From Anthopleura xanthogrammica (taxonomy: Eukaryota; Cnidaria; Anthozoa; Actiniaria; Actiniidae), in the NCBI GenBank assembly GCA_964019055.1, contig OZ025214.1, forward strand, positions 11,049,101 to 11,113,100: a stretch of 64,000 nucleotides of DNA, in the 5' to 3' direction. Below the pieces are notes generated by a model. It did no database searches and had not been told where the DNA came from. It saw only the letters and a program-made list of their open reading frames with translations. Position 1 is the stretch's first letter. Each line of letters opens with the position of its first letter. Shown piece by piece: positions 14,016 through 50,148 of this stretch. The position numbers were made by a program, and so were the translations under genes.

Positions 14016-14078
14016 AGAAAGGTCTATCATAAAATAGCGTCTCCTTCAAGAATTAGTCTTATTCTTCAAAGACACGAG

Positions 14079-15599: not shown

Positions 15600-15651
15600 G
15601 TTGTAATATTGATATCAAAATTAATAAAGAACCTTGACAAAAAGCTTTGCC
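15577..15651 (+). repeat. 75-bp duplicate of internal TIR sequence at the ATPase 3' end
   Basis: The ATPase's last codons (LPKWEKF), stop and AATAAA-containing 3' UTR match 15793-15868 almost base for base. The ATPase terminus therefore came from, or was overwritten by, TIR sequence. Confidence 0.75.
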
Positions 15652-15818
15652 AATTTTACTGCTGTAATGACTGCGATTCTATTCACCAGCTGTCGTTAAA
15701 GTCAAACAGATTGAAACTCATTGTACCAAAACATGAAGATGAACAAATGGAAGAAGAAGGAAACCACGAAACGGATCTCGAATACTTTCCTTCATTACCC
15801 AAGTGGGAAAAATTCTAA
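15652..15818 (+). pseudogene. Duplicated 3' end of the zinc-ribbon gene
   Basis: Encodes the last 54-55 residues of the 12135-13034 protein (YCCNDC... to LPKWEKF) without a start. It is the inner end of the right TIR, a gene-end copy carried by TIR expansion. Confidence 0.75.
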
Positions 15819-15925
15819 GTTGTAATATTGATATCAAAATTAATAAAGAACCTTGACAAAAGCTTTGCCACTGAACGAGAAATAGAATCATACAATAAAT
15901 CGCGTAGTTATTGTCTATTACGAGG

Positions 15926-15997
15926 ACAATTATAGTGTAATGGTTATCACGTCTGACTCTAGATCAGAAGATTATAGGTTCGATTCCCATTAAGATC
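15926..15997 (+). tRNA. tRNA-like segment, CUA anticodon, degenerate acceptor stem (right TIR)
   Basis: Cloverleaf order is present: D-arm with TAGTGTAATGG (A-box), anticodon stem TCTGA/TCAGA closing the loop CTCTAGA (anticodon CTA), T-arm with B-box GGTTCGATTCC. The T-stem has one mismatch and the acceptor stem only three pairs. The head resembles eukaryotic tRNA-Gln (GTGTAATGGTTA). A CUA anticodon would read UAG, but poor acceptor pairing makes function doubtful. Confidence 0.4.
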
Positions 15998-16304
15998 ATA
16001 TTTTTTCTCTGAAACATAAAGAAATATTTCCAGTGACACTCAAAACACAACCTCCGAAAACAAATTTATTCAAAATTGATTTTGACAAATCCAAGATAAA
16101 CATCATGTGTTGATGGAAACAATAGCTTTTGTTTGCTTAAACAAAGTAAAGTACAATGTGATATTTATGTGTACATAATGAACAATAAATCAGTATCTCG
16201 AAGATTAATGTGTACAATCAAATTAGAAATACCACCTGTTGAATAGTGTCTTCCCATCCAGGCTAGTAACATAATTATGAATTTTAGCTGTTTGGAACCA
16301 AAAA

Positions 16305-16352
16305 GGACCTTATAGTGTGATGGTTAGCATCTCTGACTCCAGATCAGAATTT
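16305..16352 (+). other. Second tRNA-like head (right TIR)
   Basis: Reads GGACCTTATAGTGTGATGGTTAGCA, then a TCTGA/TCAGA stem enclosing CTCCAGA. D-arm and anticodon arm are present; the T-arm is lost. Its mirror in the left TIR is at about 11601-11648. Confidence 0.45.
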
Positions 16353-16544
16353 ATGTCCAGAAATAAATTCCTAACCTAAAAGCAACTAAGAAATTCATAA
16401 GACATACTGGGTATGATTTCGAAATGGATAATCGTTTAGGATTATTGCTAAACCACAGTACGATAAAGAGAATTCATGGCGCGTGCCTCATTGTTTGAAG
16501 ACGAATTAATACGTAAAATACAAATCAGACAGAATTCATGGAAG

Positions 16545-16575
16545 ACCTTATGGTGTAATGAGTAGATCAAAATAT
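16545..16575 (+). other. Third tRNA-like head fragment (right TIR)
   Basis: GACCTTATGGTGTAATGAGTAG repeats the same tRNA 5' pattern; nothing of the 3' half remains. Mirror at about 11378-11408. Confidence 0.35.
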
Positions 16576-16831
16576 TTACCAAAAATTAAAGAAATATTTT
16601 CAGTGATAATAAAACATGAAAATCTGAAAATCAATCCGACTCTCATCCAGACCGTCAAACTCCCCTTGCGGGCCTAGGCAGCCCGCAATCTAAATATAGA
16701 TATGACTCTAACGCTGACCACCCCCTCCCCCTAAGGGCCCGGAGAGGGGCCCGGGGAGAGCACCGGTGGACACCGGCGTGCTCCGGAGCACCGGTGCACC
16801 TATGATGTAGAAACCTCATTCGTATACTACT

Positions 16832-18610: not shown

Positions 18611-19164
18611 TTAAGTAAGATCAGACAAAACAAGACAAGAGACGTCAAACCGAACAATCTTTCACATTCTTTTTTTTTTTTTTTTATTCTTTAATTCTTG
18701 TTCTTTTTCGTAGATTTTTCGTCACAAAATTTTAGTTGCAGAAAGTACTGTAGATTTTTTGGCCATGTTCTGTATGAAGTGGGGAGCAGAGGGACTGGGG
18801 CGAGAACCAATTTCTACCTTCAGTTACTACTCTCCGCTTTTTGTAACGGGTCAAAAAAAAGCCAAAAAAAAAATAGAAGGGAGTTCGAGCTCGAGGTTTA
18901 AGAGGAGTCGAAACTGTTGATCAAAGTGAGTACTTTTGATTTGCACTGCGTGTTTGATTTTTTTTTTTTAACTCTTTTGTGTTATGGAAGACACTAATTT
19001 GACCTAAACAGAAAAGGTATTTAAAGCCGTTAATAAATATAATAATAAAGCCGATAATAATTCAGCTATAAATTAACAGTAGCAACGTAGTAAAACGTTT
19101 ATCGAAGTAAGTAGATATACTGTGGGTCTTTGGACTGACCATTGTAGAATAAGTGCTTTAATGG
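18611..19164. other. AT-rich DNA with homopolymer tracts
   Basis: T-runs at about 18670-18690 and 18958-18970. No supported gene. Confidence 0.4.
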
Positions 19165-20233
19165 GGACGAATGGACGAATGGACGAATGGACGAATGGAC
19201 GAATGGACGAATGGACGAATGGACGAATGGACGAATGGACGAATGGACGAATGGACGAATGGACGAATGGACGAATGGACGAATGGACGAATGGACGAAT
19301 GGACGAATGGACGAATGGACGAATGGACGAATGGACGAATGGACGAATGGACGAATGGACGAATGGACGAATGGACGAATGGACGAATGGACGAATGGAC
19401 GAATGGACGAATGGACGAATGGACGAATGGACGAATGGACGAATGGACGAATGGACGAATGGACGAATGGACGAATGGACGAATGGACGAATGGACGAAT
19501 GGACGAATGGACGAATGGACGAATGGACGAATGGACGAATGGACGAATGGACGAATGGACGAATGGACGAATGGACGAATGGACGAATGGACGAATGGAC
19601 GAATGGACGAATGGACGAATGGACGAATGGACGAATGGACGAATGGACGAATGGACGAATGGACGAATGGACGAATGGACGAATGGACGAATGGACGAAT
19701 GGACGAATGGACGAATGGACGAATGGACGAATGGACGAATGGACGAATGGACGAATGGACGAATGGACGAATGGACGAATGGACGAATGGACGAATGGAC
19801 GAATGGACGAATGGACGAATGGACGAATGGACGAATGGACGAATGGACGAATGGACGAATGGACGAATGGACGAATGGACGAATGGACGAATGGACGAAT
19901 GGACGAATGGACGAATGGACGAATGGACGAATGGACGAATGGACGAATGGACGAATGGACGAATGGACGAATGGACGAATGGACGAATGGACGAATGGAC
20001 GAATGGACGAATGGACGAATGGACGAATGGACGAATGGACGAATGGACGAATGGACGAATGGACGAATGGACGAATGGACGAATGGACGAATGGACGAAT
20101 GGACGAATGGACGAATGGACGAATGGACGAATGGACGAATGGACGAATGGACGAATGGACGAATGGACGAATGGACGAATGGACGAATGGACGAATGGAC
20201 GAATGGACGAATGGACGAATGGACGAATGGACG
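19165..20233. repeat. Perfect 8-bp satellite (GGACGAAT)n, ~133 units
   Basis: 1069 bp of GGACGAAT with no visible variant unit. Because 8 is not a multiple of 3, every frame on both strands repeats the same eight codons and stays open, producing false ORFs of over 350 residues. Confidence 0.97.
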
Positions 20234-20234
20234 C

Positions 20235-20603
20235 ACCTTATTATAGAAAATTAACGCGCCATGAAATTAACGTGAATTTGAAAAAAATCGCGTTAGTTTA
20301 AGTCGTGTTAATTTATTTTAATGTTAATTTCCATATCATTAATAAAGTGGAACGTTGATTTTCACGATATCAATTTCTAGTAATTTTATTTTCGTTTTTC
20401 ATTCTACAAGCTCTTAATTTTCACTTTCAGATGAGTTATCTTTGTGTCCATCGCGTTAATTTCATTTAAATGGGAATTTTGGTTTCTCTTTTGAGTTAAT
20501 TTTCTTCATTTGGAAGTATTTTTGCCCTCGATTCGCGTTAATTTAAGTTGCGCTAATTTCTAATACTTTAACTTCGTGGAGCGTTAATTTCCTATAATAA
20601 GGT
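20235..20603. mobile_element. MITE with ACCTTATTATAG ends
   Basis: ACCTTATTATAGAAAATTAACGC at the left faces GCGTTAATTTCCTATAATAAGGT at the right. The interior is made of TTAATTT-rich short repeats. It directly abuts the satellite. Confidence 0.7.
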
Positions 20604-35804: not shown

Positions 35805-36204
35805 ATATTTAGTAAATAATCCCCTTCTAGAGGCTGGGATATAGGCTGATAATGTCCAAGGGTAAGAAATTGTCCGAAAAAAAAGAACACTTGGCCGATA
35901 ACGAAGGCTTATCCTCGAGAACCCAGGGGTAAAACTCTGTCGCTCGTTTCTCGAAAACAGAAGAAAAACCCTCGGGCACGAAGTCTGTTGGAACTTGTTC
36001 CAGAAGTTGAAATTCCATAATGCGAATATCATAGTGTGTAACGACATTGCATTCTTTGTATAACTATACTTCTGCTGGGGTCGATCAATCAGAAAAGAGA
36101 TGAATTTCCACTTACGGAACAAGTTCCAACAAACTTCGTGCACGGGGGTATTTTCCACTGCTAGCGAGAAACGAGCGACAGGATTCTACTCCTGGGTTCC
36201 CGAT
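35805..36204. mobile_element. MITE-like repeat interrupted by the palindromic Polinton
   Basis: Starts ATTTAGTAAATAATCCCC and shares GGCTGATAATGTCC with 16905 and 50190. An inverted pair (GGAACTTGTTCC... ; AACGAGCGACAGG...CTGGGTTC) runs up to the insertion point. Noncoding. Confidence 0.5.
36199..36204 (+). repeat. Target site duplication CCCGAT, left
   Basis: Directly precedes the AGTAG terminus; same as 50143-50148. Confidence 0.88.
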
Positions 36205-36485
36205 AGTAGATACAGAATGAGAGTTCTACCACAGGATCCTTGCGGATCCTTGTGGATCCTTGTGGATCCACCATTGTGGATCCATGGATTCGATTCCGGA
36301 GATTCCGGATCCACTCGGATGCGTTCGACCGGATCATTAGGATTGTTCCGGACTCGTGCGGACTCATGGATTTTGTTCCGACTCATGGATTGTGAATCCG
36401 TCGAATAAAAATTATTTTATAGCATCCAAAACTGTAAACTTTGGATGTCTTGAGATCACGTTTATTTTTAGACTCAGGTCGATTG
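36205..36485 (+). repeat. Subterminal GGATCC-rich region, left end
   Basis: Repeated GGATCCTTG(C/T)/GGATCCA units and GATTCCGGA pairs within 150 bp of the terminus. Such iterated palindromic words could be protein-binding sites for replication or integration. Confidence 0.55.
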
Positions 36486-36569
36486 CACCACAGCGACATG
36501 AGGATGACGTCATGATTTATTTTATGATTAGGTGAGATGTTGAAGACTATAAATTAAGAGTTTTCCAGG

Positions 36570-36773
36570 ATGGTTTTAGTTATACTTGAGGTGTGCCTGC
36601 TGATGTTACTCACGATCATACCTCTGATTTATTGTCTTGTACAAGATACATTTTACTGCCCTCTGTGGCATATACACGAACTCGTTGACGGTCATTATCT
36701 ACATCAAGATGTCAAGTACGATAGCACAGGGTATCTTATGTGTCGACAATGCGGTGGTTATGGTTGTCACTGA
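36570..36773 (+). CDS. Small membrane protein with Cys/His pairs (left arm)
   Basis: 67 residues from ATG at 36570. A hydrophobic N-terminal segment (about residues 2-24, LVILEVCLLMLLTIIPLIYCLV) is followed by CPLWHIH and a C-terminal CRQCGGYGCH that could bind zinc. It overlaps the next gene by 65 bp in another frame. First ORF from the element end. I do not recognise it; the TM-plus-metal-site layout argues it is real. Confidence 0.5.
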   Translation: MVLVILEVCLLMLLTIIPLIYCLVQDTFYCPLWHIHELVDGHYLHQDVKYDSTGYLMCRQCGGYGCH

Positions 36774-37251
36774 TGAGGTGGAGATGGTCGCGAAAGCAAG
36801 GGTTCGACAACTTCTAGAGTTTTTATACGTTGAACTCTGTCATAGAGCGATGATGGAACTATCCACCAGGGAATGTGAGGGCTGTCTAAGAGAGTGGCTT
36901 AGTCAACGCGACCATGCGTGTATGATGACTAGTGATCATGATGTGTGGACGTTTTTCTTTGACGATGTCAAGAACTCGATTGATTTGACCATGATACGAG
37001 ACTTGTGTATACATTTTGTCCAACTGGTAGATTTACCAATGTCCTCAGAATGGGAGACTTTTGTGTACAACCTCCCAAGTATGAACTCTTGTGTGGCAGA
37101 AATGATAGCAAGTGATATGTCATGGCCCGATAGTCAACATAAGAGAATAATAATGGACTTTGTGACTGACATGTGTGATACCATGCGTAGCAGCCACATC
37201 CTGTCTTCAGAAATATTTAATGAGTTTGTAAACACTATGTTAATGAGTTGA
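36709..37251 (+). CDS. Element accessory protein with CEGC...SQRDHAC motif (left arm)
   Basis: 180 residues from ATG at 36709; the frame upstream is open but begins only with TTG. Central CEGCLREWLSQRDHACMM resembles a Cys/His motif (CxGC...SQxxHxC) I have seen in uncharacterised proteins of Polinton-type elements. The rest is helical with scattered cysteines. The stop lies beside AATAAA. Function unknown. Confidence 0.6.
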   Translation: MSSTIAQGILCVDNAVVMVVTDEVEMVAKARVRQLLEFLYVELCHRAMMELSTRECEGCLREWLSQRDHACMMTSDHDVWTFFFDDVKNSIDLTMIRDLCIHFVQLVDLPMSSEWETFVYNLPSMNSCVAEMIASDMSWPDSQHKRIIMDFVTDMCDTMRSSHILSSEIFNEFVNTMLMS

Positions 37252-37313
37252 ATAAAAGAAATGTTTTTGTAGATCGAGAATCAGTTTCGTGTCTGACTTC
37301 AAGGGAGAAAGAC

Positions 37314-37535
37314 ATGGGTTGTGGGTGTTTGAGCTCTATCCCCAATCTTAACCTTCGAAATATTTTTCGAAAAATTCGTTGTGTCCTCGCATGCTGTGGG
37401 GGGCAAGTAATTATTGAAAACTCTCAGATTGATGGAGAACGACAGGCTCCTGGAAAAACTGTATTACAACCTCAATCAAGCAGGCAGCCTCGGAAGCGTG
37501 GATGCTTTATTCCATGCTGTAAAAAAGAAGAATAA
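37314..37535 (+). CDS. Cys-rich small protein with N-terminal MGCGC, overlapping integrase (left arm)
   Basis: 73 residues from ATG at 37314. Starts MGCGCLSS, a glycine-cysteine start typical of myristoylated/palmitoylated proteins. Another cysteine cluster lies in the middle (CVLACCGG) and a third near the end (RGCFIPCCKKEE), with basic residues around. The last 104 bp overlap the integrase start in another frame. Coding status is inferred from start context, composition and compact layout. Confidence 0.45.
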   Translation: MGCGCLSSIPNLNLRNIFRKIRCVLACCGGQVIIENSQIDGERQAPGKTVLQPQSSRQPRKRGCFIPCCKKEE

Positions 37536-38511
37536 GAAAGTCACTAAGAAAGAAGTTCAAGAATGGTTAAGAGGTCGGAGAGTGTATTCTCTTCACCGAC
37601 CGGCTATTAAACATTTCCGTAGAAATCGTGTACTAGTTGGGTCAATCGACTCTGTATGGGAGCTGGATCTGATCGATATGCAATCACTTAAGAAATACAA
37701 TAGCAATTACAGATACCTGCTTACCTGTATTGATGTGCTGTCAAAGTATGCATGGGTTGTTCCAATTAAGAATAAAAGTGCTCCAACTCTAGTGGATGCA
37801 TTCAAGCAAATATTAAGTGATTCAGAGCAACGTCAACCAACCAAAGTCCACACGGATCGCGGGAGTGAATTTACGAATCGATTGTTCCAGTCGTTTTTAA
37901 AAGAAAAGAACATCGAATCTTACCACACTTTCAACGATGTAAAGGCCAGTATCGTGGAGCGTTTTAACCGTTCGATTCAGCAACGAATATATCGCTACTT
38001 TACATGGAAAGGAACACTGAAATATATAGATGTATTACCTGATATTGTTGATGCATACAATAACTCGTATCATAGGAGTATTAAGAGAGCACCAGTGTCA
38101 GTAAACAAGAATAATGAAAATGAAGTGTGGAAAACTTTGTACGGAAACACATTGATGAGGAGACCACCCTATAAATTTATAGTGGGAGACCAAGTACGAA
38201 TTTCCAAGAACAAGAAACTCTTTGAGAAGGGATACTTGCCTAATTGGAGTGAAGAAATTTTTACTATTTCAAAGCGAATCCCTCGAAATCCTCCAGTATA
38301 TAAGTTGAGAGAATTTGACGGGGATGTACTAGAAGGAACGTTTTATGAGCAAGAACTACAAAGAGTTAAGACCAAGGGAGAGGAAGAAGTTTATAAGATA
38401 GAGAAGATATTAAGAACACGTAAACGCGGTGGAAATAAGGAGTATTTTGTAAAATGGTTAGGGTACCCAGAGAAGTATAATAGCTGGGTCTTGAGTAGTG
38501 ATATTGAATAA
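37432..38511 (+). CDS. Polinton integrase (rve fold) with C-terminal chromodomain (left arm)
   Basis: 359 residues from ATG at 37432. Retroviral-type integrase core with catalytic candidates D79 (WELDLID), D142 (HTDRGSEF) and E176 (SIVERFN), spaced 33 residues between the last two. A basic region and beta-rich C-terminal part follow, then a chromodomain-like end (about 312-359: EEEVYKIEKIL..., EYFVKWLGY...NSWV), which may guide insertion to marked chromatin. It would join element DNA to host DNA, giving the 6-bp duplications seen. The stop is inside AATAAA. Intact in both arms. Confidence 0.93.
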   Translation: MENDRLLEKLYYNLNQAGSLGSVDALFHAVKKKNKKVTKKEVQEWLRGRRVYSLHRPAIKHFRRNRVLVGSIDSVWELDLIDMQSLKKYNSNYRYLLTCIDVLSKYAWVVPIKNKSAPTLVDAFKQILSDSEQRQPTKVHTDRGSEFTNRLFQSFLKEKNIESYHTFNDVKASIVERFNRSIQQRIYRYFTWKGTLKYIDVLPDIVDAYNNSYHRSIKRAPVSVNKNNENEVWKTLYGNTLMRRPPYKFIVGDQVRISKNKKLFEKGYLPNWSEEIFTISKRIPRNPPVYKLREFDGDVLEGTFYEQELQRVKTKGEEEVYKIEKILRTRKRGGNKEYFVKWLGYPEKYNSWVLSSDIE

Positions 38512-38566
38512 AGATTATAAGACCTAACGCATTGTGTGTCTTGTGTTCATTTGACGATCAACCAAT

Positions 38567-39319
38567 ATGAGTACGGGTCAATTTTATATTACTCTCCCGA
38601 GTAATAGTTCCATGGATGTATATCCAAATAACACTCTAGCTGAATATAGAGTGAAACTTCCCGAGCGTATGGATTTAGTAGGGGCTTGGGAAGTAGGGCT
38701 TGCCTCCATAACATTCCCCCACACCTGGTTTAACATTGTTTATGAGGATCAAAGTTTTTATTACGATGAGGGTACTGGACTATGGTCAGTAAGCAGGATT
38801 CCGATAGGCTATTACACGTCAGTCACTGATGTCATTAACAGTATAAATAAAGCAATCACAGACGAGGGAATAACAGGCATCTCCCTCAAGTTAGATAATC
38901 GATCTCAGAAAGTCACAGTGACGTTAGGTACTGGAAAGAAGTTGAGTTTCGAAAATTATCTAGGAGTGATCTTAGGATTTGGAAGTGATATCATCCTAGA
39001 CAAGACGACCGAAGCACCCTTTGTGAGTGATTTGAATATTGGTCTTCAATCACTTTATGTTTATTTAAACATCATCGAAAGCCAAGTGGTGGGTGATACC
39101 AGAGCTCCTCTATTGCGCATTATTCCGGCTCGAGGCAAAGACGGAGAAATCATAACGATCGAATATGACAATCCTCAATATCTCCCTCTGGCCACCAAAG
39201 AATTTGAGACTATGGAGATCCTTATAACGGATGACACGGGGAAAAAAGTCCCATTTGAACGTGGACGCGTGGTGATAACATTGAGTTTTAGACTTCATCG
39301 ATCACCTTATTTTCGATAA
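38567..39319 (+). CDS. Probable Polinton minor capsid (penton-type) protein (left arm)
   Basis: 250 residues from ATG at 38567. Opens QFYITLPSNSSMDVYPNNT and then LVGAWEVGLASITFP, a strongly conserved start I know from uncharacterised proteins encoded near Polinton capsid genes in cnidarians. Mostly beta-rich with no TM segment, compatible with a jelly-roll penton. Sits between integrase and core protein, one base before the next ATG. Minor capsid assignment is from family context and has not been shown directly. Confidence 0.65.
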   Translation: MSTGQFYITLPSNSSMDVYPNNTLAEYRVKLPERMDLVGAWEVGLASITFPHTWFNIVYEDQSFYYDEGTGLWSVSRIPIGYYTSVTDVINSINKAITDEGITGISLKLDNRSQKVTVTLGTGKKLSFENYLGVILGFGSDIILDKTTEAPFVSDLNIGLQSLYVYLNIIESQVVGDTRAPLLRIIPARGKDGEIITIEYDNPQYLPLATKEFETMEILITDDTGKKVPFERGRVVITLSFRLHRSPYFR

Positions 39320-39320
39320 C

Positions 39321-39730
39321 ATGAGAAAACAGCAAGGAGGACACATGATGGTGTTTCACGGTGAACCTTTTCAGAAAGGATATGGACTTGGTTCTTTTTT
39401 CCAATCCCTAGCAAGAAAAGCCTTACCATTATTACGAGAAGGTGTCAAAACGGCAGGCAAAGCAGCCCTCAGCCAGGGGCTAATATTGCAAGAGATGTTT
39501 TGGCTGGGAATAATTTGAAAGATTCTACCAAGGCAAGGTTACAGCAAACGGCGCAGACTATGAAAAAACGAGCCTTCGATAAGATCACCTCCCAAGTTGG
39601 AAGCGGTAGATCGAGACGAAAAAAGACTTTAAAACGAAAGACTTCGCAGAAAAAGATCACTTCACCTCCGACTTGCAAAGCGAAAAGAGCTAAGATAGTT
39701 CTCGCGAGCAAAGACATTTTCGGACGTTAG
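39321..39730 (+). pseudogene. Basic core protein gene, frameshifted (left arm)
   Basis: ATG at 39321 follows the upstream stop by one base. The frame is lost near 39473-39476, where this arm is one base shorter than the right arm. It ends early at 39518, and the rest of the coding sequence continues in another frame to 39730. The intact copy is at 46385-46795. Confidence 0.8.
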
Positions 39731-39731
39731 G

Positions 39732-41063
39732 ATGGCATTCGTACACCCTCACTCCACTCCGTGCACGAAAAGTGAATTGGATTTGTTTACGATACCACCT
39801 ACCCAAGTTGTTGTAGATAAGAGTCAGTGGATCGAGTATCAACCCATATCATCCATATCCTCAACGGCACCCATAGAATTTCAAGTAACGGGGTCAGAAA
39901 ATTACCTTGACTTAGCAAAGACCATGTTGTTCATCAAAGTGAAAGTGACCAAGGCTAATGACACGAGTCTCACAACTGATGAAAAAGTTGGACCTGTCAA
40001 TAATTTTTTACAAAGTTTGTTTAAACAAGTGGATGTGTTTCTCAATGGTATTCAAGTAACGCAGTCTACTGGAACGTACAGTTACAAAGGCGTACTCGAA
40101 ACGATTTTGAACTATGGTTTGTCAGCCAAGAAGTCCCATCTTACAGCAGGTCTGTATTACAAAGACACAGCGGGAGAGATGGATGAAACAGACCCAACAT
40201 CGGGTGGAGCCAATGTCGGACTCAAGACACGCTATTCCCTTACTCAGAAAAGTTATATCGTGGATTTATGGGGCCCCCTACACTGTGACATGCTCTTCAG
40301 CGATCGCCTTCTCCTAAATCATGTCGATGTGACTATAAAACTAAACCCTAACAGCCCGGCGTTCGCTTTGATGTCAGGAGAAACGAACCCCAATTACAAG
40401 ATTGCGATTCAAAGTGCCAACCTGAAAGTTCGTGCTGTGAAAGTAAGCCCAGTCTTACAACTTCAGCACCTGAACGAGTTAAAGAAAGGAATGAGCGCCA
40501 TATACCCAATACGGAGGACAGATTGTAAGACATACACCATACCCACAGGCAACCCATCGATACATAAAGGAGATATATTTAATGGTCTGGTACCTAAACG
40601 TGTGGTGTTAGCGATGGTGGATTCTGATGCGTTTAATGGAAGTTTTATCAAAAATCCTTACAATTTCCAGCTGTATGGAGCCACGTCCATCAGCCTAACC
40701 ACCGACGGAGAACAGATACCCTTCAAACCCATTACTTTAAAACTCGCAAGAGCTGGTGAAATGAACTTCATGGAAGCGTATCAGACCTTATTTTCAGGAA
40801 CGGGTAGACTGTTTGCAGATTCTGGTATAGATATCGAAAGACAAGATTACAACAAAGGTTATGCCATCCTGGTCTTTAATTTAACCCCAGATCTCTGCGG
40901 TTCTTCAACACATTTAAATCAGAAACTGAAGGGAAACGTATCCTTAGAAGTACAGTTCAGCACAGGCCTACCCAACGCAGTCAACCTCATCGTATACGGA
41001 GAATTTGAATCCACAGTCGAGATTGACTTTGCACGTCACGTGACCTTTGACTACTCAGCATGA
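39732..41063 (+). CDS. Polinton major capsid protein (double jelly-roll, F54H12.2-like) (left arm)
   Basis: 443 residues from ATG at 39732. Contains SELDLFTIPPTQ, KSQWIEYQPISSIS and LSTGLPNAVNLIVYGEF-type blocks known from 'F54H12.2-like' proteins, which correspond to Polinton/adintovirus hexons. Beta-rich, no TM segment. Forms the icosahedral shell by homology. The stop overlaps the protease start (ATGA). Intact in both arms, with no difference that changes the protein. Confidence 0.85.
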   Translation: MAFVHPHSTPCTKSELDLFTIPPTQVVVDKSQWIEYQPISSISSTAPIEFQVTGSENYLDLAKTMLFIKVKVTKANDTSLTTDEKVGPVNNFLQSLFKQVDVFLNGIQVTQSTGTYSYKGVLETILNYGLSAKKSHLTAGLYYKDTAGEMDETDPTSGGANVGLKTRYSLTQKSYIVDLWGPLHCDMLFSDRLLLNHVDVTIKLNPNSPAFALMSGETNPNYKIAIQSANLKVRAVKVSPVLQLQHLNELKKGMSAIYPIRRTDCKTYTIPTGNPSIHKGDIFNGLVPKRVVLAMVDSDAFNGSFIKNPYNFQLYGATSISLTTDGEQIPFKPITLKLARAGEMNFMEAYQTLFSGTGRLFADSGIDIERQDYNKGYAILVFNLTPDLCGSSTHLNQKLKGNVSLEVQFSTGLPNAVNLIVYGEFESTVEIDFARHVTFDYSA

Positions 41064-41515
41064 ACACTGGACAGATAAAAGACATTATTAAGAAAGACCT
41101 TATTACTAGAAGAAAGTTTGGAGGCGTGTTTGCTGTAAATCGCCTTCCACATTCCGTAGACTTTTACCCATGCGGTTACATAGTAAATACAGACCCGAGT
41201 AACAAACCAGGCAAACACTGGGTAGCCTTTTATTTTATCACCCCAGAACAAGGAGAATTTTTTGATAGTTACGGACACTCTCCCGAATTTTACAGTATTA
41301 CATTTTTGAACTTCCTCGATCGAAACAGTAGGCATTGGAGTTTTAATAATAGAGAACTGCAAAGTACACTGACTGCTGTCTGTGGGGAATATTGTATTTT
41401 TTATTTAATGCATCGAGCACGGGGTGTCAGCATGAGTGACATTGTAAACCTATTTACTTCAGACAAAGTGTGTAACGACCACATGGTCTATGAATTTGTA
41501 ATGAAGCATATGTAA
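41060..41515 (+). CDS. Adenovirus-type maturation cysteine protease (left arm)
   Basis: 151 residues from ATG at 41060, overlapping the capsid stop. Catalytic candidates H53 (GKHWVAFY), D69 (EFFDSYG), Q101 and C112 (CGEYCIFY) follow the order of adenain/Ulp1-like proteases. In relatives it cleaves virion precursors during maturation. Length is short compared with adenain (about 204). AATAAA follows the stop at once. Confidence 0.88.
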   Translation: MNTGQIKDIIKKDLITRRKFGGVFAVNRLPHSVDFYPCGYIVNTDPSNKPGKHWVAFYFITPEQGEFFDSYGHSPEFYSITFLNFLDRNSRHWSFNNRELQSTLTAVCGEYCIFYLMHRARGVSMSDIVNLFTSDKVCNDHMVYEFVMKHM

Positions 41516-41577
41516 CACAATAAACTAAGAAAATAAGTTTTTGAATGATTTATTTGATATATTTCTCGTTTACAATT
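41516..41577. terminator. Convergent 3' ends with poly(A) signals on both strands (left arm)
   Basis: Only 62 bp separate the protease and adaptor stops. AATAAA occurs on the plus strand just after the protease stop and again on the minus strand (complement of TTTATT near 41545). Mirror at 44538-44599. Confidence 0.6.
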
Positions 41578-42363
41578 TTAATAGTCTATCCAGTTTAAAG
41601 TTTTTTTCCCTTTAAGACCTCGTCTCTGTAAAGCGGGAGAAACGGGTCGCTTTCTTGGTCGACTAGGAGGGGTGGGTTGGGGTGATGGTGATGAAGCAGA
41701 AGGGGTCATGGAAGGGAGTCTTCCACCTGCTTTAAACGAAGTCAACAACCGTCTTCGATTCTCGTTTCTCACAAAGTCTTCAGGAGTATTTAATTTCGCC
41801 AGAATCTGGGTAAACTTGTCTCTTCCGGTGGGAGAAAATCCCTTCCTCGTCCTCACGAGGTCATTAATCAAATCAGAAATGCTGGATCCCTTGACTGATT
41901 TTCCCTCCAATGACACCTACTCCTTCTCATCCCATTGAACAGCCTCAGGGGTCTTCTTTATCCAGCGCAATAGCCCCTGAGCTTGACTTCGAAACTTGTT
42001 AGGGACCGTTCCAAGGATCTCTGATTCTGGAACCGATTGTGTTTGGGTTTCCAGTGGAGGCTGCTCCTGTGAGGGTGGCGGTGGGGGTTGGGGTTCCCGT
42101 GGTGTCGCGTCTGTGGCGTGAATTCGTACTGAAGGCACGTAGCTTTCACGCTGCTCTTGTAAATTCAAGTAGCGATGAAATAATTGGTCATGATTCTTGA
42201 TCTTAATCTAGGCTGGCAAGTTTGGATCTTGTAGCGTATTGTTCATTTGTTGGTTGATTGAACTCATCGATTTGACTAGCGGTGAAGTTTGAATATCGTT
42301 TCGTTGTTGAATGATATGCATCACCTCCTCGGGAATTAAATACATTTTCCTACTGTGCTTCAT
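41578..42363 (-). pseudogene. Proline-rich adaptor protein with two in-frame TAG codons (left arm)
   Basis: Mirror of 43752-44537. ATG at 42363 overlaps the stop of the upstream gene. Same two TAGs, at about 42210-42208 and 41919-41917. Faces the protease gene tail to tail with only 62 bp between them. Confidence 0.7.
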
Positions 42364-42695
42364 AATTTCTTTGATATGAGGCTGGCGAGAACGGACAAGA
42401 CTGGTGGTATTAGGAATGGGAGAAAGTTGCCTCCTGTCTGATTCAAAAACTTTCTTTTCTTCGTAATGGACGCCTTTTTATCTACCAAGGCACGCAATAC
42501 TCTCTTGTAACGCTTAAGTTTTTTCTTTTGTTGTTCACTAATGGGCACTACACCTCTTAATACGTTCAAGGTCACTTCACAGATCGCTTTGATTAATTCA
42601 GCGTTACAACACTTGAGAATAGCATGTCGTAATTTCGGGTCAGATTTGGCCAGTACGCGTAGAAAATCTGCGTTGTCTCTCAGTCGACGAGACAT
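42360..42695 (-). CDS. Small basic protein with hydrophobic tail (pX-like) (left arm)
   Basis: 111 residues from ATG at 42695. Basic, helical (CEVTLNVLRGVVPI, KKKLKRYKR), ending in GGNFLPFLIPPVLSVLASLI, a membrane-seeking tail. Homologous to 13094-13414. Probably a core or membrane-active virion protein. Confidence 0.75.
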   Translation of the reverse strand: MSRRLRDNADFLRVLAKSDPKLRHAILKCCNAELIKAICEVTLNVLRGVVPISEQQKKKLKRYKRVLRALVDKKASITKKRKFLNQTGGNFLPFLIPPVLSVLASLISKKL

Positions 42696-42728
42696 TCTCA
42701 AATGATTCGATTAGGCGATGACAGTTGT

Positions 42729-43357
42729 TTAAATACGCTTAACATAAGCCGCTTGTTGCTCATCTGGAAAGATCGAGGTACGAAGTCGAATTTTTTCCGC
42801 AGTTGAAGGGTGTAAGTCGAAGACTAAGTACCCATAGGGGTGTTGGATAGCATCTTCATAACTTTCCATCACGTATTTCGTAGAGCGGGGAAAAGCTTGT
42901 CTTGCTAGTATGGAGACTCCTAAAGAATCTCTAGGGTGTTTGAAAGTCACGATATAGTGGGTATTCAGAGAAATCGTCCTCGAATGTTTTCCCGGTGGAA
43001 AAAGATTTTGAACTAAAAATAATGTGGAAATATTGTGGTGATGACAACCTTTGGTGATAACATTCACCATTGTATCTTTACTCGTACTTTCGTTCATGAG
43101 GTCATCCAGAACGAGGACACCAGCTGTGTTATCAAACAGTGGATAAATATCTTCCGGAAATCCTTGGATAAATTGAATGTTAGGGATTTCTCTTTCCATC
43201 GCTAAGAACCGCGGTTGAAACTCGCCGTAGCAATACACAATCTTTTGGATCGGTTGATTGAACATCTCATTCACATTTCGTAAAAGTTTTTCAGTCCAAT
43301 AGGTTTTTCCAGAAAACGTCGGACCACATACTTGAATGTCGATCTTTCCAGATGAGC
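42729..43357 (-). pseudogene. Packaging ATPase, N-terminally truncated at the palindrome spacer
   Basis: Single copy, lying in the spacer and the inner left arm. It has Walker A GPTFSGKT (43325-43302), Walker B GVLVLDDLMN (about 43121-43092) and a C-terminus ending at 42729 within the arm. Upstream of IDIQVC the sequence turns into reverse-complemented ATPase 3' end and soon hits a stop, so the natural N-terminus (a zinc finger and lead-in of about 65 residues in the 14079-15599 homologue) is missing. Closely related in core to that ATPase. Without a proper start it is likely inactive unless a GTG (43274) or other start is used, which would lose Walker A. Confidence 0.8.
42777..43338. other. 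Asymmetric spacer of the palindrome (562 bp)
   Basis: The only unmirrored DNA between the arms; filled by the ATPase core on the minus strand. Arm identity stops at GATCGA|G versus GATCGA|C. Confidence 0.9.
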
Positions 43358-43419
43358 AACAAGCGGCTTATGTTAAGCGTATTTAAACAACTGTCATCGC
43401 CTAATCGAATCATTTGAGA

Positions 43420-43755
43420 ATGTCTCGTCGACTGAGAGACAACGCAGATTTTCTACGCGTACTGGCCAAATCTGACCCGAAATTACGACATGCTATTCTC
43501 AAGTGTTGTAACGCTGAATTAATCAAAGCGATCTGTGAAGTGACCTTGAACGTATTAAGAGGTGTAGTGCCCATTAGTGAACAACAAAAGAAAAAACTTA
43601 AGCGTTACAAGAGAGTATTGCGTGCCTTGGTAGATAAAAAGGCGTCCATTACGAAGAAAAGAAAGTTTTTGAATCAGACAGGAGGCAACTTTCTCCCATT
43701 CCTAATACCACCAGTCTTGTCCGTTCTCGCCAGCCTCATATCAAAGAAATTATGA
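43420..43755 (+). CDS. Small basic protein with hydrophobic tail (pX-like) (right arm)
   Basis: Identical protein to 42360-42695, 111 residues. ATG at 43420 lies about 80 bp from the spacer edge. Its stop TGA overlaps the next ATG (ATGA at 43752), implying coupled translation. Confidence 0.75.
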   Translation: MSRRLRDNADFLRVLAKSDPKLRHAILKCCNAELIKAICEVTLNVLRGVVPISEQQKKKLKRYKRVLRALVDKKASITKKRKFLNQTGGNFLPFLIPPVLSVLASLISKKL

Positions 43756-44537
43756 AGCACAGTAGGAAAATGTATTTAATTCCCGAGGAGGTGATGCATA
43801 TCATTCAACAACGAAACGATATTCAAACTTCACCGCTAGTCAAATCGATGAGTTCAATCAACCAACAAATGAACAATACGCTACAAGATCCAAACTTGCC
43901 AGCCTAGATTAAGATCAAGAATCATGACCAATTATTTCATCGCTACTTGAATTTACAAGAGCAGCGTGAAAGCTACGTGCCTTCAGTACGAATTCACGCC
44001 ACAGACGCGACACCACGGGAACCCCAACCCCCACCGCCACCCTCACAGGAGCAGCCTCCACTGGAAACCCAAACACAATCGGTTCCAGAATCAGAGATCC
44101 TTGGAACGGTCCCTAACAAGTTTCGAAGTCAAGCTCAGGGGCTATTGCGCTGGATAAAGAAGACCCCTGAGGCTGTTCAATGGGATGAGAAGGAGTAGGT
44201 GTCATTGGAGGGAAAATCAGTCAAGGGATCCAGCATTTCTGATTTGATTAATGACCTTGTGAGGACGAGGAAGGGATTTTCTCCCACCGGAAGAGACAAG
44301 TTTACCCAGATTCTGGCGAAATTAAATACTCCTGAAGACTTTGTGAGAAACGAGAATCGAAGACGGTTGTTGACTTCGTTTAAAGCAGGTGGAAGACTCC
44401 CTTCCATGACCCCTTCTGCTTCATCACCATCACCCCAACCCACCCCTCCTAGTCGACCAAGAAAGCGACCCGTTTCTCCCGCTTTACAGAGACGAGGTCT
44501 TAAAGGGAAAAAAACTTTAAACTGGATAGACTATTAA
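43752..44537 (+). pseudogene. Proline-rich adaptor protein with two in-frame TAG codons (right arm)
   Basis: One continuous frame from ATG 43752 to the stop at 44537, interrupted by TAG at 43905-43907 (codon 52) and 44196-44198 (codon 149). N-terminal part (SPLVKSMSS, DPNLPA, HRYLNLQEQ) matches the segment fused to the ATPase at 14079-15599. Middle is proline-rich (PPPPPSQEQPP). C-terminal part (GKSVKGSSISDLINDLVR, LNTPEDFVRNENR) is a domain common in Polinton-linked proteins. Both stops interrupt conserved parts, so these are nonsense changes or read-through codons. Confidence 0.72.
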
Positions 44538-44599
44538 AATTGTAAACGAGAAATATATCAAATAAATCATTCAAAAACTTATTTTCTTAGTTTATTGTG

Positions 44600-45055
44600 T
44601 TACATATGCTTCATTACAAATTCATAGACCATGTGGTCGTTACACACTTTGTCTGAAGTAAATAGGTTTACAATGTCACTCATGCTGACACCCCGTGCTC
44701 GATGCATTAAATAAAAAATACAATATTCCCCACAGACAGCAGTCAGTGTACTTTGCAGTTCTCTATTATTAAAACTCCAATGCCTACTGTTTCGATCGAG
44801 GAAGTTCAAAAATGTAATACTGTAAAATTCGGGAGAGTGTCCGTAACTATCAAAAAATTCTCCTTGTTCTGGGGTGATAAAATAAAAGGCTACCCAGTGT
44901 TTGCCTGGTTTGTTACTCGGGTCTGTATTTACTATGTAACCGCATGGGTAAAAGTCTACGGAATGTGGAAGGCGATTTACAGCAAACACGCCTCCAAACT
45001 TTCTTCTAGTAATAAGGTCTTTCTTAATAATGTCTTTTATCTGTCCAGTGTTCAT
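44600..45055 (-). CDS. Adenovirus-type maturation protease (right arm)
   Basis: Same 151-residue protein as 41060-41515 with H53, D69, Q101 and C112 kept. Start overlaps the capsid stop. Confidence 0.88.
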   Translation of the reverse strand: MNTGQIKDIIKKDLITRRKFGGVFAVNRLPHSVDFYPCGYIVNTDPSNKPGKHWVAFYFITPEQGEFFDSYGHSPEFYSITFLNFLDRNSRHWSFNNRELQSTLTAVCGEYCIFYLMHRARGVSMSDIVNLFTSDKVCNDHMVYEFVMKHM

Positions 45056-46383
45056 GCTGAGTAGTCAAAGGTCACGTGACGTGCAAAGTCAATCTCGACT
45101 GTGGATTCAAATTCTCCGTATACGATGAGGTTGACTGCGTTGGGTAGGCCTGTGCTGAACTGTACTTCTAAGGATACGTTTCCCTTCAGTTTCTGATTTA
45201 AATGTGTTGAAGAACCGCAGAGATCTGGGGTTAAATTAAAGACCAGGATGGCATAACCTTTGTTGTAATCTTGTCTTTCGATATCTATACCAGAATCTGC
45301 AAACAGTCTACCCGTTCCTGAAAATAAGGTCTGATACGCTTCCATGAAGTTCATTTCACCAGCTCTTGCGAGTTTTAAAGTAATGGGTTTGAAGGGTATC
45401 TGTTCTCCGTCGGTGGTTAGGCTGATGGACGTGGCTCCATACAGCTGGAAATTGTAAGGATTTTTGATAAAACTTCCATTAAACGCATCAGAATCCACCA
45501 TCGCTAACACCACACGTTTAGGTACCAGACCATTAAATATATCTCCTTTATGTATCGATGGGTTGCCTGTGGGTATGGTGTATGTCTTACAATCTGTCCT
45601 CCGTATTGGGTATATGGCGCTCATTCCTTTCTTTAACTCGTTCAGGTGCTGAAGTTGTAAGACTGGGCTTACTTTCACAGCACGAACTTTCAGGTTGGCA
45701 CTTTGAATCGCAATCTTGTAATTGGGGTTCGTTTCTCCTGACATCAAAGCGAACGCCGGGCTGTTAGGGTTTAGTTTTATAGTCACATCGACATGATTTA
45801 GGAGAAGGCGATCGCTGAAGAGCATGTCACAGTGTAGGGGGCCCCATAAATCCACGATATAACTTTTCTGAGTAAGGGAATAGCGTGTCTTGAGTCCGAC
45901 ATTGGCTCCACCCGATGTTGGGTCTGTTTCATCCATCTCTCCCGCTGTGTCTTTGTAATACAGACCTGCTGTAAGATGGGACTTCTTGGCTGACAAACCA
46001 TAGTTCAAAATCGTTTCGAGTACGCCTTTGTAACTGTACGTTCCAGTAGACTGCGTTACTTGAATACCATTGAGAAACACATCCACTTGTTTAAACAAAC
46101 TTTGTAAAAAATTATTGACAGGTCCAACTTTTTCATCAGTTGTGAGACTCGTGTCATTAGCCTTGGTCACTTTCACTTTGATGAACAACATGGTCTTTGC
46201 TAAGTCAAGGTAATTTTCTGACCCCGTTACTTGAAATTCTATGGGTGCCGTTGAGGATATGGATGATATGGGTTGATACTCGATCCACTGACTCTTATCT
46301 ACAACAACTTGGGTAGGTGGTATCGTAAACAAATCCAATTCACTTTTCGTGCACGGAGTGGAGTGAGGGTGTACGAATGCCAT
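45052..46383 (-). CDS. Polinton major capsid protein (right arm)
   Basis: Same 443-residue protein as 39732-41063. Confidence 0.85.
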   Translation of the reverse strand: MAFVHPHSTPCTKSELDLFTIPPTQVVVDKSQWIEYQPISSISSTAPIEFQVTGSENYLDLAKTMLFIKVKVTKANDTSLTTDEKVGPVNNFLQSLFKQVDVFLNGIQVTQSTGTYSYKGVLETILNYGLSAKKSHLTAGLYYKDTAGEMDETDPTSGGANVGLKTRYSLTQKSYIVDLWGPLHCDMLFSDRLLLNHVDVTIKLNPNSPAFALMSGETNPNYKIAIQSANLKVRAVKVSPVLQLQHLNELKKGMSAIYPIRRTDCKTYTIPTGNPSIHKGDIFNGLVPKRVVLAMVDSDAFNGSFIKNPYNFQLYGATSISLTTDGEQIPFKPITLKLARAGEMNFMEAYQTLFSGTGRLFADSGIDIERQDYNKGYAILVFNLTPDLCGSSTHLNQKLKGNVSLEVQFSTGLPNAVNLIVYGEFESTVEIDFARHVTFDYSA

Positions 46384-46384
46384 C

Positions 46385-46795
46385 CTAACGTCCGAAAATG
46401 TCTTTGCTCGCGAGAACTATCTTAGCTCTTTTCGCTTTGCAAGTCGGAGGTGAAGTGATCTTTTTCTGCGAAGTCTTTCGTTTTAAAGTCTTTTTTCGTC
46501 TCGATCTACCGCTTCCAACTTGGGAGGTGATCTTATCGAAGGCTCGTTTTTTCATAGTCTGCGCCGTTTGCTGTAACCTTGCCTTGGTAGAATCTTTCAA
46601 ATTATTCCCAGCCAAAACATCTCTTGCAATATTAGCCCCTGTGCTGAGGGCTGCTTTGCCTGCCGTTTTGACACCTTCTCGTAATAATGGTAAGGCTTTT
46701 CTTGCTAGGGATTGGAAAAAAGAACCAAGTCCATATCCTTTCTGAAAAGGTTCACCGTGAAACACCATCATGTGTCCTCCTTGCTGTTTTCTCAT
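46385..46795 (-). CDS. Basic core/minor virion protein, intact copy (right arm)
   Basis: 136 residues from ATG at 46795. N-terminal GYGLGSFFQSLARKALPLL, an amphipathic helix region (GVKTAGKAALSTGANIARDVLAG) and a very basic C-terminus with SRRKKTLKRK. This plan is familiar from Polinton proteins compared with adenovirus core/cement proteins (pX/pVI type). It could bind DNA inside the particle and disturb membranes; both are inference. The left-arm copy is frameshifted. Confidence 0.75.
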   Translation of the reverse strand: MRKQQGGHMMVFHGEPFQKGYGLGSFFQSLARKALPLLREGVKTAGKAALSTGANIARDVLAGNNLKDSTKARLQQTAQTMKKRAFDKITSQVGSGRSRRKKTLKRKTSQKKITSPPTCKAKRAKIVLASKDIFGR

Positions 46796-46796
46796 G

Positions 46797-47549
46797 TTAT
46801 CGAAAATAAGGTGATCGATGAAGTCTAAAACTCAATGTTATCACCACGCGTCCACGTTCAAATGGGACTTTTTTCCCCGTGTCATCCGTTATAAGGATCT
46901 CCATAGTCTCAAATTCTTTGGTGGCCAGAGGGAGATATTGAGGATTGTCATATTCGATCGTTATGATTTCTCCGTCTTTGCCTCGAGCCGGAATAATGCG
47001 CAATAGAGGAGCTCTGGTATCACCCACCACTTGGCTTTCGATGATGTTTAAATAAACATAAAGTGATTGAAGACCAATATTCAAATCACTCACAAAGGGT
47101 GCTTCGGTCGTCTTGTCTAGGATGATATCACTTCCAAATCCTAAGATCACTCCTAGATAATTTTCGAAACTCAACTTCTTTCCAGTACCTAACGTCACTG
47201 TGACTTTCTGAGATCGATTATCTAACTTGAGGGAGATGCCTGTTATTCCCTCGTCTGTGATTGCTTTATTTATACTGTTAATGACATCAGTGACTGACGT
47301 GTAATAGCCTATCGGAATCCTGCTTACTGACCATAGTCCAGTACCCTCATCGTAATAAAAACTTTGATCCTCATAAACAATGTTAAACCAGGTGTGGGGG
47401 AATGTTATGGAGGCAAGCCCTACTTCCCAAGCCCCTACTAAATCCATACGCTCGGGAAGTTTCACTCTATATTCAGCTAGAGTGTTATTTGGATATACAT
47501 CCATGGAACTATTACTCGGGAGAGTAATATAAAATTGACCCGTACTCAT
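46797..47549 (-). CDS. Probable minor capsid protein (right arm)
   Basis: Same 250-residue protein as 38567-39319. Confidence 0.65.
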   Translation of the reverse strand: MSTGQFYITLPSNSSMDVYPNNTLAEYRVKLPERMDLVGAWEVGLASITFPHTWFNIVYEDQSFYYDEGTGLWSVSRIPIGYYTSVTDVINSINKAITDEGITGISLKLDNRSQKVTVTLGTGKKLSFENYLGVILGFGSDIILDKTTEAPFVSDLNIGLQSLYVYLNIIESQVVGDTRAPLLRIIPARGKDGEIITIEYDNPQYLPLATKEFETMEILITDDTGKKVPFERGRVVITLSFRLHRSPYFR

Positions 47550-47604
47550 ATTGGTTGATCGTCAAATGAACACAAGACACACAATGCGTTAGGTCTTATA
47601 ATCT

Positions 47605-48684
47605 TTATTCAATATCACTACTCAAGACCCAGCTATTATACTTCTCTGGGTACCCTAACCATTTTACAAAATACTCCTTATTTCCACCGCGTTTACGTGT
47701 TCTTAATATCTTCTCTATCTTATAAACTTCTTCCTCTCCCTTGGTCTTAACTCTTTGTAGTTCTTGCTCATAAAACGTTCCTTCTAGTACATCCCCGTCA
47801 AATTCTCTCAACTTATATACTGGAGGATTTCGAGGGATTCGCTTTGAAATAGTAAAAATTTCTTCACTCCAATTAGGCAAGTATCCCTTCTCAAAGAGTT
47901 TCTTGTTCTTGGAAATTCGTACTTGGTCTCCCACTATAAATTTATAGGGTGGTCTCCTCATCAATGTGTTTCCGTACAAAGTTTTCCACACTTCATTTTC
48001 ATTATTCTTGTTTACTGACACTGGTGCTCTCTTAATACTCCTATGATACGAGTTATTGTATGCATCAACAATATCAGGTAATACATCTATATATTTCAGT
48101 GTTCCTTTCCATGTAAAGTAGCGATATATTCGTTGCTGAATCGAACGGTTAAAACGCTCCACGATACTGGCCTTTACATCGTTGAAAGTGTGGTAAGATT
48201 CGATGTTCTTTTCTTTTAAAAACGACTGGAACAATCGATTCGTAAATTCACTCCCGCGATCCGTGTGGACTTTGGTTGGTTGACGTTGCTCTGAATCACT
48301 TAATATTTGCTTGAATGCATCCACTAGAGTTGGAGCACTTTTATTCTTAATTGGAACAACCCATGCATACTTTGACAGCACATCAATACAGGTAAGCAGG
48401 TATCTGTAATTGCTATTGTATTTCTTAAGTGATTGCATATCGATCAGATCCAGCTCCCATACAGAGTCGATTGACCCAACTAGTACACGATTTCTACGGA
48501 AATGTTTAATAGCCGGTCGGTGAAGAGAATACACTCTCCGACCTCTTAACCATTCTTGAACTTCTTTCTTAGTGACTTTCTTATTCTTCTTTTTTACAGC
48601 ATGGAATAAAGCATCCACGCTTCCGAGGCTGCCTGCTTGATTGAGGTTGTAATACAGTTTTTCCAGGAGCCTGTCGTTCTCCAT
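47605..48684 (-). CDS. Polinton integrase with chromodomain (right arm)
   Basis: Same 359-residue protein as 37432-38511 with all three catalytic acids; ATG at 48684. Confidence 0.93.
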   Translation of the reverse strand: MENDRLLEKLYYNLNQAGSLGSVDALFHAVKKKNKKVTKKEVQEWLRGRRVYSLHRPAIKHFRRNRVLVGSIDSVWELDLIDMQSLKKYNSNYRYLLTCIDVLSKYAWVVPIKNKSAPTLVDAFKQILSDSEQRQPTKVHTDRGSEFTNRLFQSFLKEKNIESYHTFNDVKASIVERFNRSIQQRIYRYFTWKGTLKYIDVLPDIVDAYNNSYHRSIKRAPVSVNKNNENEVWKTLYGNTLMRRPPYKFIVGDQVRISKNKKLFEKGYLPNWSEEIFTISKRIPRNPPVYKLREFDGDVLEGTFYEQELQRVKTKGEEEVYKIEKILRTRKRGGNKEYFVKWLGYPEKYNSWVLSSDIE

Positions 48685-48802
48685 CAATCTGAGAGTTTTC
48701 AATAATTACTTGCCCCCCACAGCATGCGAGGACACAACGAATTTTTCGAAAAATATTTCGAAGGTTAAGATTGGGGATAGAGCTCAAACACCCACAACCC
48801 AT
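48581..48802 (-). CDS. Cys-rich MGCGC small protein (right arm)
   Basis: Mirror of 37314-37535, ATG at 48802, overlapping the integrase start. Confidence 0.45.
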   Translation of the reverse strand: MGCGCLSSIPNLNLRNIFRKIRCVLACCGGQVIIENSQIDGERQAPGKTVLQPQSSRQPRKRGCFIPCCKKEE

Positions 48803-48864
48803 GTCTTTCTCCCTTGAAGTCAGACACGAAACTGATTCTCGATCTACAAAAACATTTCTTTTAT

Positions 48865-49407
48865 TCAACTCATTAACATAGTGTTTACAAACTCATTAAA
48901 TATTTCTGAAGACAGGATGTGGCTGCTACGCATGGTATCACACATGTCAGTCACAAAGTCCATTATTATTCTCTTATGTTGACTATCGGGCCATGACATA
49001 TCACTTGCTATCATTTCTGCCACACAAGAGTTCATACTTGGGAGGTTGTACACAAAAGTCTCCCATTCTGAGGACATTGGTAAATCTACCAGTTGGACAA
49101 AATGTATACACAAGTCTCGTATCATGGTCAAATCAATCGAGTTCTTGACATCGTCAAAGAAAAACGTCCACACATCATGATCACTAGTCATCATACACGC
49201 ATGGTCGCGTTGACTAAGCCACTCTCTTAGACAGCCCTCACATTCCCTGGTGGATAGTTCCATCATCGCTCTATGACAGAGTTCAACGTATAAAAACTCT
49301 AGAAGTTGTCGAACCCTTGCTTTCGCGACCATCTCCACCTCATCAGTGACAACCATAACCACCGCATTGTCGACACATAAGATACCCTGTGCTATCGTAC
49401 TTGACAT
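48865..49407 (-). CDS. Accessory protein with CEGC...SQRDHAC motif (right arm)
   Basis: Mirror of 36709-37251; ATG at 49407, unchanged protein. Confidence 0.6.
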   Translation of the reverse strand: MSSTIAQGILCVDNAVVMVVTDEVEMVAKARVRQLLEFLYVELCHRAMMELSTRECEGCLREWLSQRDHACMMTSDHDVWTFFFDDVKNSIDLTMIRDLCIHFVQLVDLPMSSEWETFVYNLPSMNSCVAEMIASDMSWPDSQHKRIIMDFVTDMCDTMRSSHILSSEIFNEFVNTMLMS

Positions 49408-49546
49408 CTTGATGTAGATAATGACCGTCAACGAGTTCGTGTATATGCCACAGAGGGCAGTAAAATGTATCTTGTACAAGACAATAAATCAGAGGTATGA
49501 TCGTGAGTAACATCAGCAGGCACACCTCAAGTATAACTAAAACCAT
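49343..49546 (-). CDS. Small membrane protein with Cys/His pairs (right arm)
   Basis: Mirror of 36570-36773; ATG at 49546, unchanged protein. Confidence 0.5.
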   Translation of the reverse strand: MVLVILEVCLLMLLTIIPLIYCLVQDTFYCPLWHIHELVDGHYLHQDVKYDSTGYLMCRQCGGYGCH

Positions 49547-49630
49547 CCTGGAAAACTCTTAATTTATAGTCTTCAACATCTCACCTAATCATAAAATAAA
49601 TCATGACGTCATCCTCATGTCGCTGTGGTG

Positions 49631-50092
49631 CAATCGACCTGAGTCTAAAAATAAACGTGATCTCAAGACATCCAAAGTTTACAGTTTTGGATGCTATAAA
49701 ATAACTTTTATTCGACGGATTCACAATCCATGAGTCGGAACAAAATCCATGAGTCCGCACGAGTCCGGAACAATCCTAATGATCCGGTCGAACGCATCCG
49801 AGTGGATCCGGAATCTCCGGAATCGAATCCATGGATCCACAATGGTGGATCCACAAGGATCCAATCGACCTGAGTCTAAAAATAAACGTGATCTCAAGAC
49901 ATCCAAAGTTTACAGTTTTGGATGCTATAAAATAATTTTTATTCGACGGATTCACAATCCATGAGTCGGAACAAAATCCATGAGTCCGCACGAGTCCGGA
50001 ACAATCCTAATGATCCGGTCGAACGCATCCGAGTGGATCCGGAATCTCCGGAATCGAATCCATGGATCCACAATGGTGGATCCACAAGGATC
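49631..50092 (-). repeat. 231-bp tandem duplication in the right subterminal region
   Basis: CAATCGACCTGAGTC at 49631 recurs at 49862, and the two 231-bp units are almost identical. The left arm has one unit. Confidence 0.88.
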
Positions 50093-50142
50093 CACAAGGA
50101 TCCGCAAGGATCCTGTGGTAGAACTCTCATTCTGTATCTACT

Positions 50143-50148
50143 CCCGAT
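50143..50148 (+). repeat. Target site duplication CCCGAT, right
   Basis: Directly follows the CTACT terminus; same as 36199-36204. Confidence 0.88.

Follow-up and report, generated by a model that had tools for sequence, protein, structure and literature searches.

Palindromic, left-end-duplicated defective adenovirus genomes carry one genome end twice, head to head, and have lost the right half. Polintons/Mavericks, in the vertebrate set of PMC8097293, are 12.7-24.6 kb long and hold two modules on converging strands in the order IN-mcp-PW-MCP-PRO / PZ-PM-ATP, and their particles are stated there never to have been observed. For Galileo (P superfamily), excerpts of PMC3573991 and PMC4168063 describe internal sequence that was recruited in inverted orientation beside the second terminal repeat, in pieces of 69 bp to >500 bp. 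Here we studied a 64,000-nt stretch of the Anthopleura xanthogrammica genome (C9:11049101-11113100, hereafter the window; the genome comprises 290 Mb in 125 contigs, and C-numbers are contig labels), in which positions 36205-50142 form a palindromic, Polinton-derived element. We propose that a palindromic, defective-genome-like linear extrachromosomal DNA formed first and was then integrated, a reading to which we give roughly an even chance.

An inverted-repeat search of the window and an alignment of the arms divided the palindrome into arm 1 (36205-42776, 6572 nt, + strand), its mirror image arm 2 (43339-50142, 6804 nt, - strand) and, between them, a 562-bp single-copy spacer of ATPase coding sequence (42777-43338). 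The repeat consists of three blocks (39474-42776/43339-46641, 36253-39473/46643-49863 and 36205-36485/49862-50142), and the arms are 99.954% identical over 6525 aligned columns. This corresponds to three single-base differences and means that the arms were doubled, or last homogenised, recently. In total, one substitution (41857/44258), one base present in arm 2 alone (46642) and a tandem duplication of 231 bp distinguish the arms. The duplication places two copies of a ~231-bp terminal segment at 49630-50095 (- strand), where arm 1 has one; the repeat has a 2-nt overlap, and the inner copy is one base off both the outer copy and arm 1. Polarised on relatives where possible, the changes are distributed over both arms: the substitution (per the relatives) and a 1-nt deletion that breaks a frame are derived in arm 1, and the inner terminal copy is derived in arm 2. 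We had considered whether repair synthesis left mutations preferentially in one arm and rejected this, as two changes in one arm and one in the other show no bias. The left terminal segment (36205-36485, + strand) is identical to the right terminus over 281 bp, both ends begin with AGTAGATACAG, and one copy of CCCGAT stands on each side (36199-36204 and 50143-50148) as a 6-bp target-site duplication (TSD). A 6.5-kb inverted repeat at 99.95% cannot be chance. The palindrome is confirmed at the sequence level; the two arms, the spacer and the flanking CCCGAT are as the initial annotation had described them.

The flanks differ, again as first noted. Compared over 3 kb, they have dispersed repeats in common, with four matches (78-86%) in direct orientation but no match in inverted orientation, i.e. 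they are not mirrored. The left CCCGAT stands at the edge of a 289-bp inverted-repeat sequence (35915-36203) with many relatives genome-wide, and a 30-letter pattern over the joined flanks, with ≤3 mismatches allowed, gave 0 matches in the genome as an empty site. Mirrored arms by themselves would also fit two insertions in opposite orientation that were fused by loss of their right halves. We regard this as very improbable, since the outer 6-bp duplications would have to match by chance (~1/4096 for such a match on its own), the two inserted copies would need to be near-identical siblings, and the same coincidence would be required again at a second palindrome on C12 (described below). A nested or double insertion was ruled out on the TSD.

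The relatives of the element in the same genome show what the palindrome was made from (all genome searches for copies and junctions give lower bounds). Three elements, at C9:12118825-12130088, at C5:10889200-10900492 and on C100 (one end seen), align collinearly with arm 1 and the spacer (78% over 6.9 kb) and have terminal repeats of ~2.1 kb. The C9 and C5 elements are single units of 11.3 kb with 6-bp TSDs (CACGAA and CGTAGG, respectively); past the fold point, they run on into the remainder of the ATPase, which is an intact 281-aa protein in the C5 element. These relatives, with the same order of genes, reveal the palindrome as two left halves placed head to head. At the fold-back junction (43338/43339), the joined sequences have ~1 nt in common, as judged on relatives that are 84% identical there. 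Searching with the capsid region, we found at least seven loci (the window, C9, C5, C100, C18 and two on C3) besides a fragment on C21, and among these the head-to-head arrangement occurs only in the window. The capsid region at the other loci is 72-82% identical and nowhere near-identical; short left-end fragments on C20 and C18 alone reach 93-94% identity to the palindrome. The 3.9-kb element at C21:3592930-3596845 (TSD TGTGAC) derives from the 11.3-kb element, to which it is 99.9% identical, by an internal deletion whose join has a 2-nt overlap; because it has a TSD of its own, defective forms occur at separate sites.

The genes of the palindrome are named by position, following the Maverick order in section 7 of PMC8097293. 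Each arm encodes an upstream open reading frame (ORF), an integrase with a chromodomain, capsid-position proteins of 250 and 443 aa, an adenain-like protease and a PM-position ORF. On the + strand of arm 1, these are a hypothetical 180-aa ORF (36709-37251; 66% identical to the C5 relative), the integrase with rve core and chromodomain (37432-38511; PF00665, E 8.7e-16, and PF00385, E 1.1e-10), the 250-aa protein at the minor-capsid position (38567-39319), the 443-aa protein at the major-capsid position (39732-41063) and the protease (41060-41515; PF00770, E 2.1e-4, 21.5 bits vs a cut-off of 21.3), so that both the rve-type integrase and the adenovirus-type protease of Polintons/Mavericks are present. 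The - strand carries a PZ-position frame with two in-frame stops (41578-42363), the 113-aa PM-position ORF (42360-42701) and a putative packaging ATPase (42729-43338). The ATPase is single in the palindrome: it crosses the spacer, is cut at the fold point and lacks ~79 N-terminal residues compared with the protein of the C5 relative. Its match to PF04665, taken for the A32 type of packaging ATPase, has an E-value of 0.013 in this shortened form and 8.1e-5 in a smaller element of the window (11122-16831), both below the cut-off. A 136-aa PW-position ORF is intact in arm 2 (46385-46795, - strand) and frameshifted in arm 1 at 39473/39474. The PZ stops were read from the translation of arm 1; arm 2 is identical at these positions and differs by one base elsewhere in the frame. 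Because the arms agree at the stops, the PZ lesions are older than the doubling, or than a later homogenisation of the arms. Apart from these stops, the PW frameshift and the junction-cut ATPase, the genes are open. A full set of particle genes in mirror image, as initially annotated, is therefore found for the integrase, the capsid-position genes and the protease, but not for the single, truncated ATPase or the interrupted PZ frame.

By Pfam, no ORF in 36205-50142 is a DNA polymerase (the longest has 443 aa), and the ORFs of the C5 relative likewise included none. Because a polymerase is lacking, the element is not classed as a complete Polinton; it is Polinton-derived and bounded by one TSD, which agrees with the type first assigned to it. 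A polymerase-like sequence lies ~3 kb past the ATPase, on the ATPase strand, at C18 and at two C3 loci, i.e. outside the half that the palindrome kept; the label is a weak one, the query piece matching PF02945 above and PF03175 below the cut-off. In the element on C18, 800 bases compared from its right end matched a dispersed repeat only, and no terminal repeat was found in them. The two C3 elements (near 5.52 Mb and 5.68 Mb) are closely similar, ~157 kb apart and in the same orientation, and represent either a real duplication or an uncollapsed haplotype.

The 443-aa protein had no Pfam and no PDB match, the 250-aa protein had no Pfam match above the cut-off, and a single-sequence structure model of the former (pLDDT, the predicted local distance difference test, 34.9) was too poor for a fold search. 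We found 146 homologs of the 443-aa protein; among the 120 matches listed, the named organisms are cnidarian, with the sea anemones Exaiptasia and Actinostola highest. The integrase had 4300 homologs, and the organism names among the 120 matches listed belong to one hemichordate and one lancelet (55-56% identity). Taken by themselves, these matches make a cnidarian host probable. The viral contigs searched held no relatives of the capsid-position protein or the integrase, and among five proteins tested against PHROGs, the integrase alone matched, mostly to transposase families. We therefore propose both capsid identities, the double jelly-roll major capsid protein and the minor capsid protein of Polintons/Mavericks, as putative ones, from gene order and, for the 443-aa protein, also from family conservation, not from fold.

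A second palindrome was found among relatives of the smaller element in the window. The latter (11122-16831) is complete, 5.7 kb long, with the TSD CTTGGT and terminal repeats of 1179 bp at 99.8%; its products are proteins of 106 and 299 aa and an ATPase with a fused PZ-like tail (recognised by eye), and no integrase or capsid ORF was found in it. At least 12 loci of this type have both terminal repeats. One of them, C12:9734338-9745532, is a palindrome of such a 5-6-kb element with the TSD CATTTA outside both ends; the other 11 have gene matches in a single orientation. The forward copy of the C12 element runs to 9743749 and, after one extra base, an inverted copy of the end of the 299-aa gene begins at 9743751. 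The forward repeat region and the inverted gene have no bases in common at the join. Over the 150 bp compared, the arms show no difference, the spacer is 858 bp, and the fold point differs from that of the window palindrome. A stretch of ~6.8 kb (9735165 to 9741932), apparently a nested insertion of later date, splits the left terminal repeat, and the two parts overlap by 6 bp in query coordinates. A longer terminal match at both C12 ends was dropped as proof of a palindrome, as ordinary elements (window, C2, C10, C15) have it too. The search for further palindromic copies that the initial annotation had advised thus returned the same junction at no second locus, but a related palindrome on C12.

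The window palindrome and the 5-6-kb elements on C19, C21 and C1 have terminal sequence in common (80-87% over ~180-240 bp), and the 11.3-kb capsid/integrase elements (C9, C5) and the small ATPase elements have terminal-repeat sequence in common, up to 97%. Such common repeats suggest joint mobilisation or a multipartite arrangement, and we speculate that the 5-6-kb elements, with their ATPase and PZ-like tail, might complement the palindrome.

Long perfect palindromes are difficult to assemble, and the two related elements ~157 kb apart on C3 make an uncollapsed duplication possible, so that a fold-back artefact of assembly or library has to be considered. We judge it improbable: the flanks are unmirrored and bear one TSD, the arms are told apart by the substitution, the indel and the 231-bp repeat, and the capsid-region search showed no near-identical copy elsewhere that could have been misjoined. 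The C12 palindrome, with its other fold point and its own TSD, also makes a fold-back unlikely. Because two independent palindromes have different fold points and hold their termini inside a TSD, they point to a process rather than an assembly accident.

This process could have acted before or after insertion. In the reading that we prefer, a broken or displaced strand of linear element DNA, in replication or repair, would fold back close to the 5' end of the ATPase gene, either by snap-back synthesis with a ~560-nt loop or by end-joining of two left-end fragments. The product would have two left termini and, because of these, could be inserted like a normal element, presumably by the family's own integrase; helper elements would have to supply the polymerase and the intact ATPase that it lacks. 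The short spacers (562 and 858 bp) were counted for such a fold-back. We also counted for this origin the perfect 6-bp TSDs in eight of the nine elements tested, both palindromes among them, the 3.9-kb deletion derivative with its own TSD and the position of the polymerase-like sequence outside the half that was kept. The wider claim, that Polinton-family elements here yield palindromic defective genomes which the integrase inserts, and that this was caught twice in one genome, seems to us about evenly balanced. Several observations weigh against this origin. Neither the window junction nor the C12 junction was found at a second locus genome-wide, the joins with ~1 nt (window) or no bases (C12) in common are weak for primed snap-back synthesis, and the 231-bp repeat in one terminal segment requires an additional event. 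The two PZ stops at arm-identical letters show a unit that was defective before doubling, which a duplication after insertion would explain equally well, and the ninth element tested (C21:9552540) has no 6-bp TSD.

The main alternative is a conversion after insertion, in which a break in the right half of a normal element was repaired by inverted copying of the left half, ending in the homologous right terminal repeat, i.e. an extreme terminal-repeat extension. We consider it possible, with lower confidence; our weights for these two origins are judgements and not computed odds. An inverted left terminal repeat reads as a right one, so the flanks and the TSD would stay intact and no mirrored flank is needed. 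Such extension is described for Galileo in excerpts of PMC3573991 and PMC4168063, and the former also mentions reports of inverted-repeat expansion for Polintons. Conversion agrees, too, with the PZ stops lying where the arm letters agree and with each palindrome junction being found at one locus, and the 231-bp repeat with its 2-nt overlap could be a second repair breakpoint. On the other hand, the repair copy would have to end in a terminal repeat at two loci, and, with two independent repair ends, nothing specifically predicts short spacers. A 93% relative on C20 (one end seen) has a single terminal segment, which fits both models equally. The initial annotation had reasoned that a later duplication must mirror the flanking DNA and that the palindrome was therefore the integrating molecule. 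Its premise is unsound, given repair through homologous terminal repeats as in the Galileo model outlined in PMC3573991; we retain its conclusion as the preferred one on the recurrence at C12 and, since the genome searches showed each junction at one locus, infer integration as a palindrome rather than observe it.

If a palindromic molecule did integrate, the chromosome would document that defective genomes form in a self-synthesizing transposon with as yet unobserved particles, and integrated palindromes with TSDs would be indirect evidence that linear extrachromosomal replication produces such genomes, as it does in linear DNA viruses. If conversion after insertion is true, the loci represent extreme terminal-repeat extension instead. 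More speculatively, the long inverted repeats could yield double-stranded RNA against the family. Other features were seen along the way. The small element at C21:9552540-9557706 has 155-bp flanks mirrored on both sides and no 6-bp TSD at the usual termini. In the window, 19161-20301 is a long tandem repeat with three overlapping open frames (MDEWTNGR repeated), and 1-457 and 5651-6111 form a 461-bp inverted repeat (96.7%) and may be the termini of a further element that the window truncates.

At the title and abstract level of the literature searched, we found no description of a palindromic Polinton or of defective palindromic adenovirus genomes. Compared with the Polintons/Mavericks of PMC8097293, the element has the rve integrase, the adenain-like protease, a putative packaging ATPase, AGT-type termini, a 6-bp TSD (CCCGAT/CCCGAT) and a size within 12.7-24.6 kb, and its gene order and strands match the two convergent modules minus the polymerase. 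It differs in lacking a polymerase, in its shortened ATPase and in its palindromic form, with two left halves around the 562-bp spacer. Like the extended terminal inverted repeats of Galileo in the excerpts cited above, it has inverted internal sequence adjoining the second terminal repeat; unlike them, it would have recruited ~6.6 kb with several genes, and it belongs with Polintons rather than the P superfamily. With a palindromic defective viral genome, it has in common the two copies of one end, the loss of the other half, the junction inside and the proposed helper dependence. Unlike the palindromic defective genomes of adenoviruses, the palindrome here is chromosomal and is bounded by a TSD.

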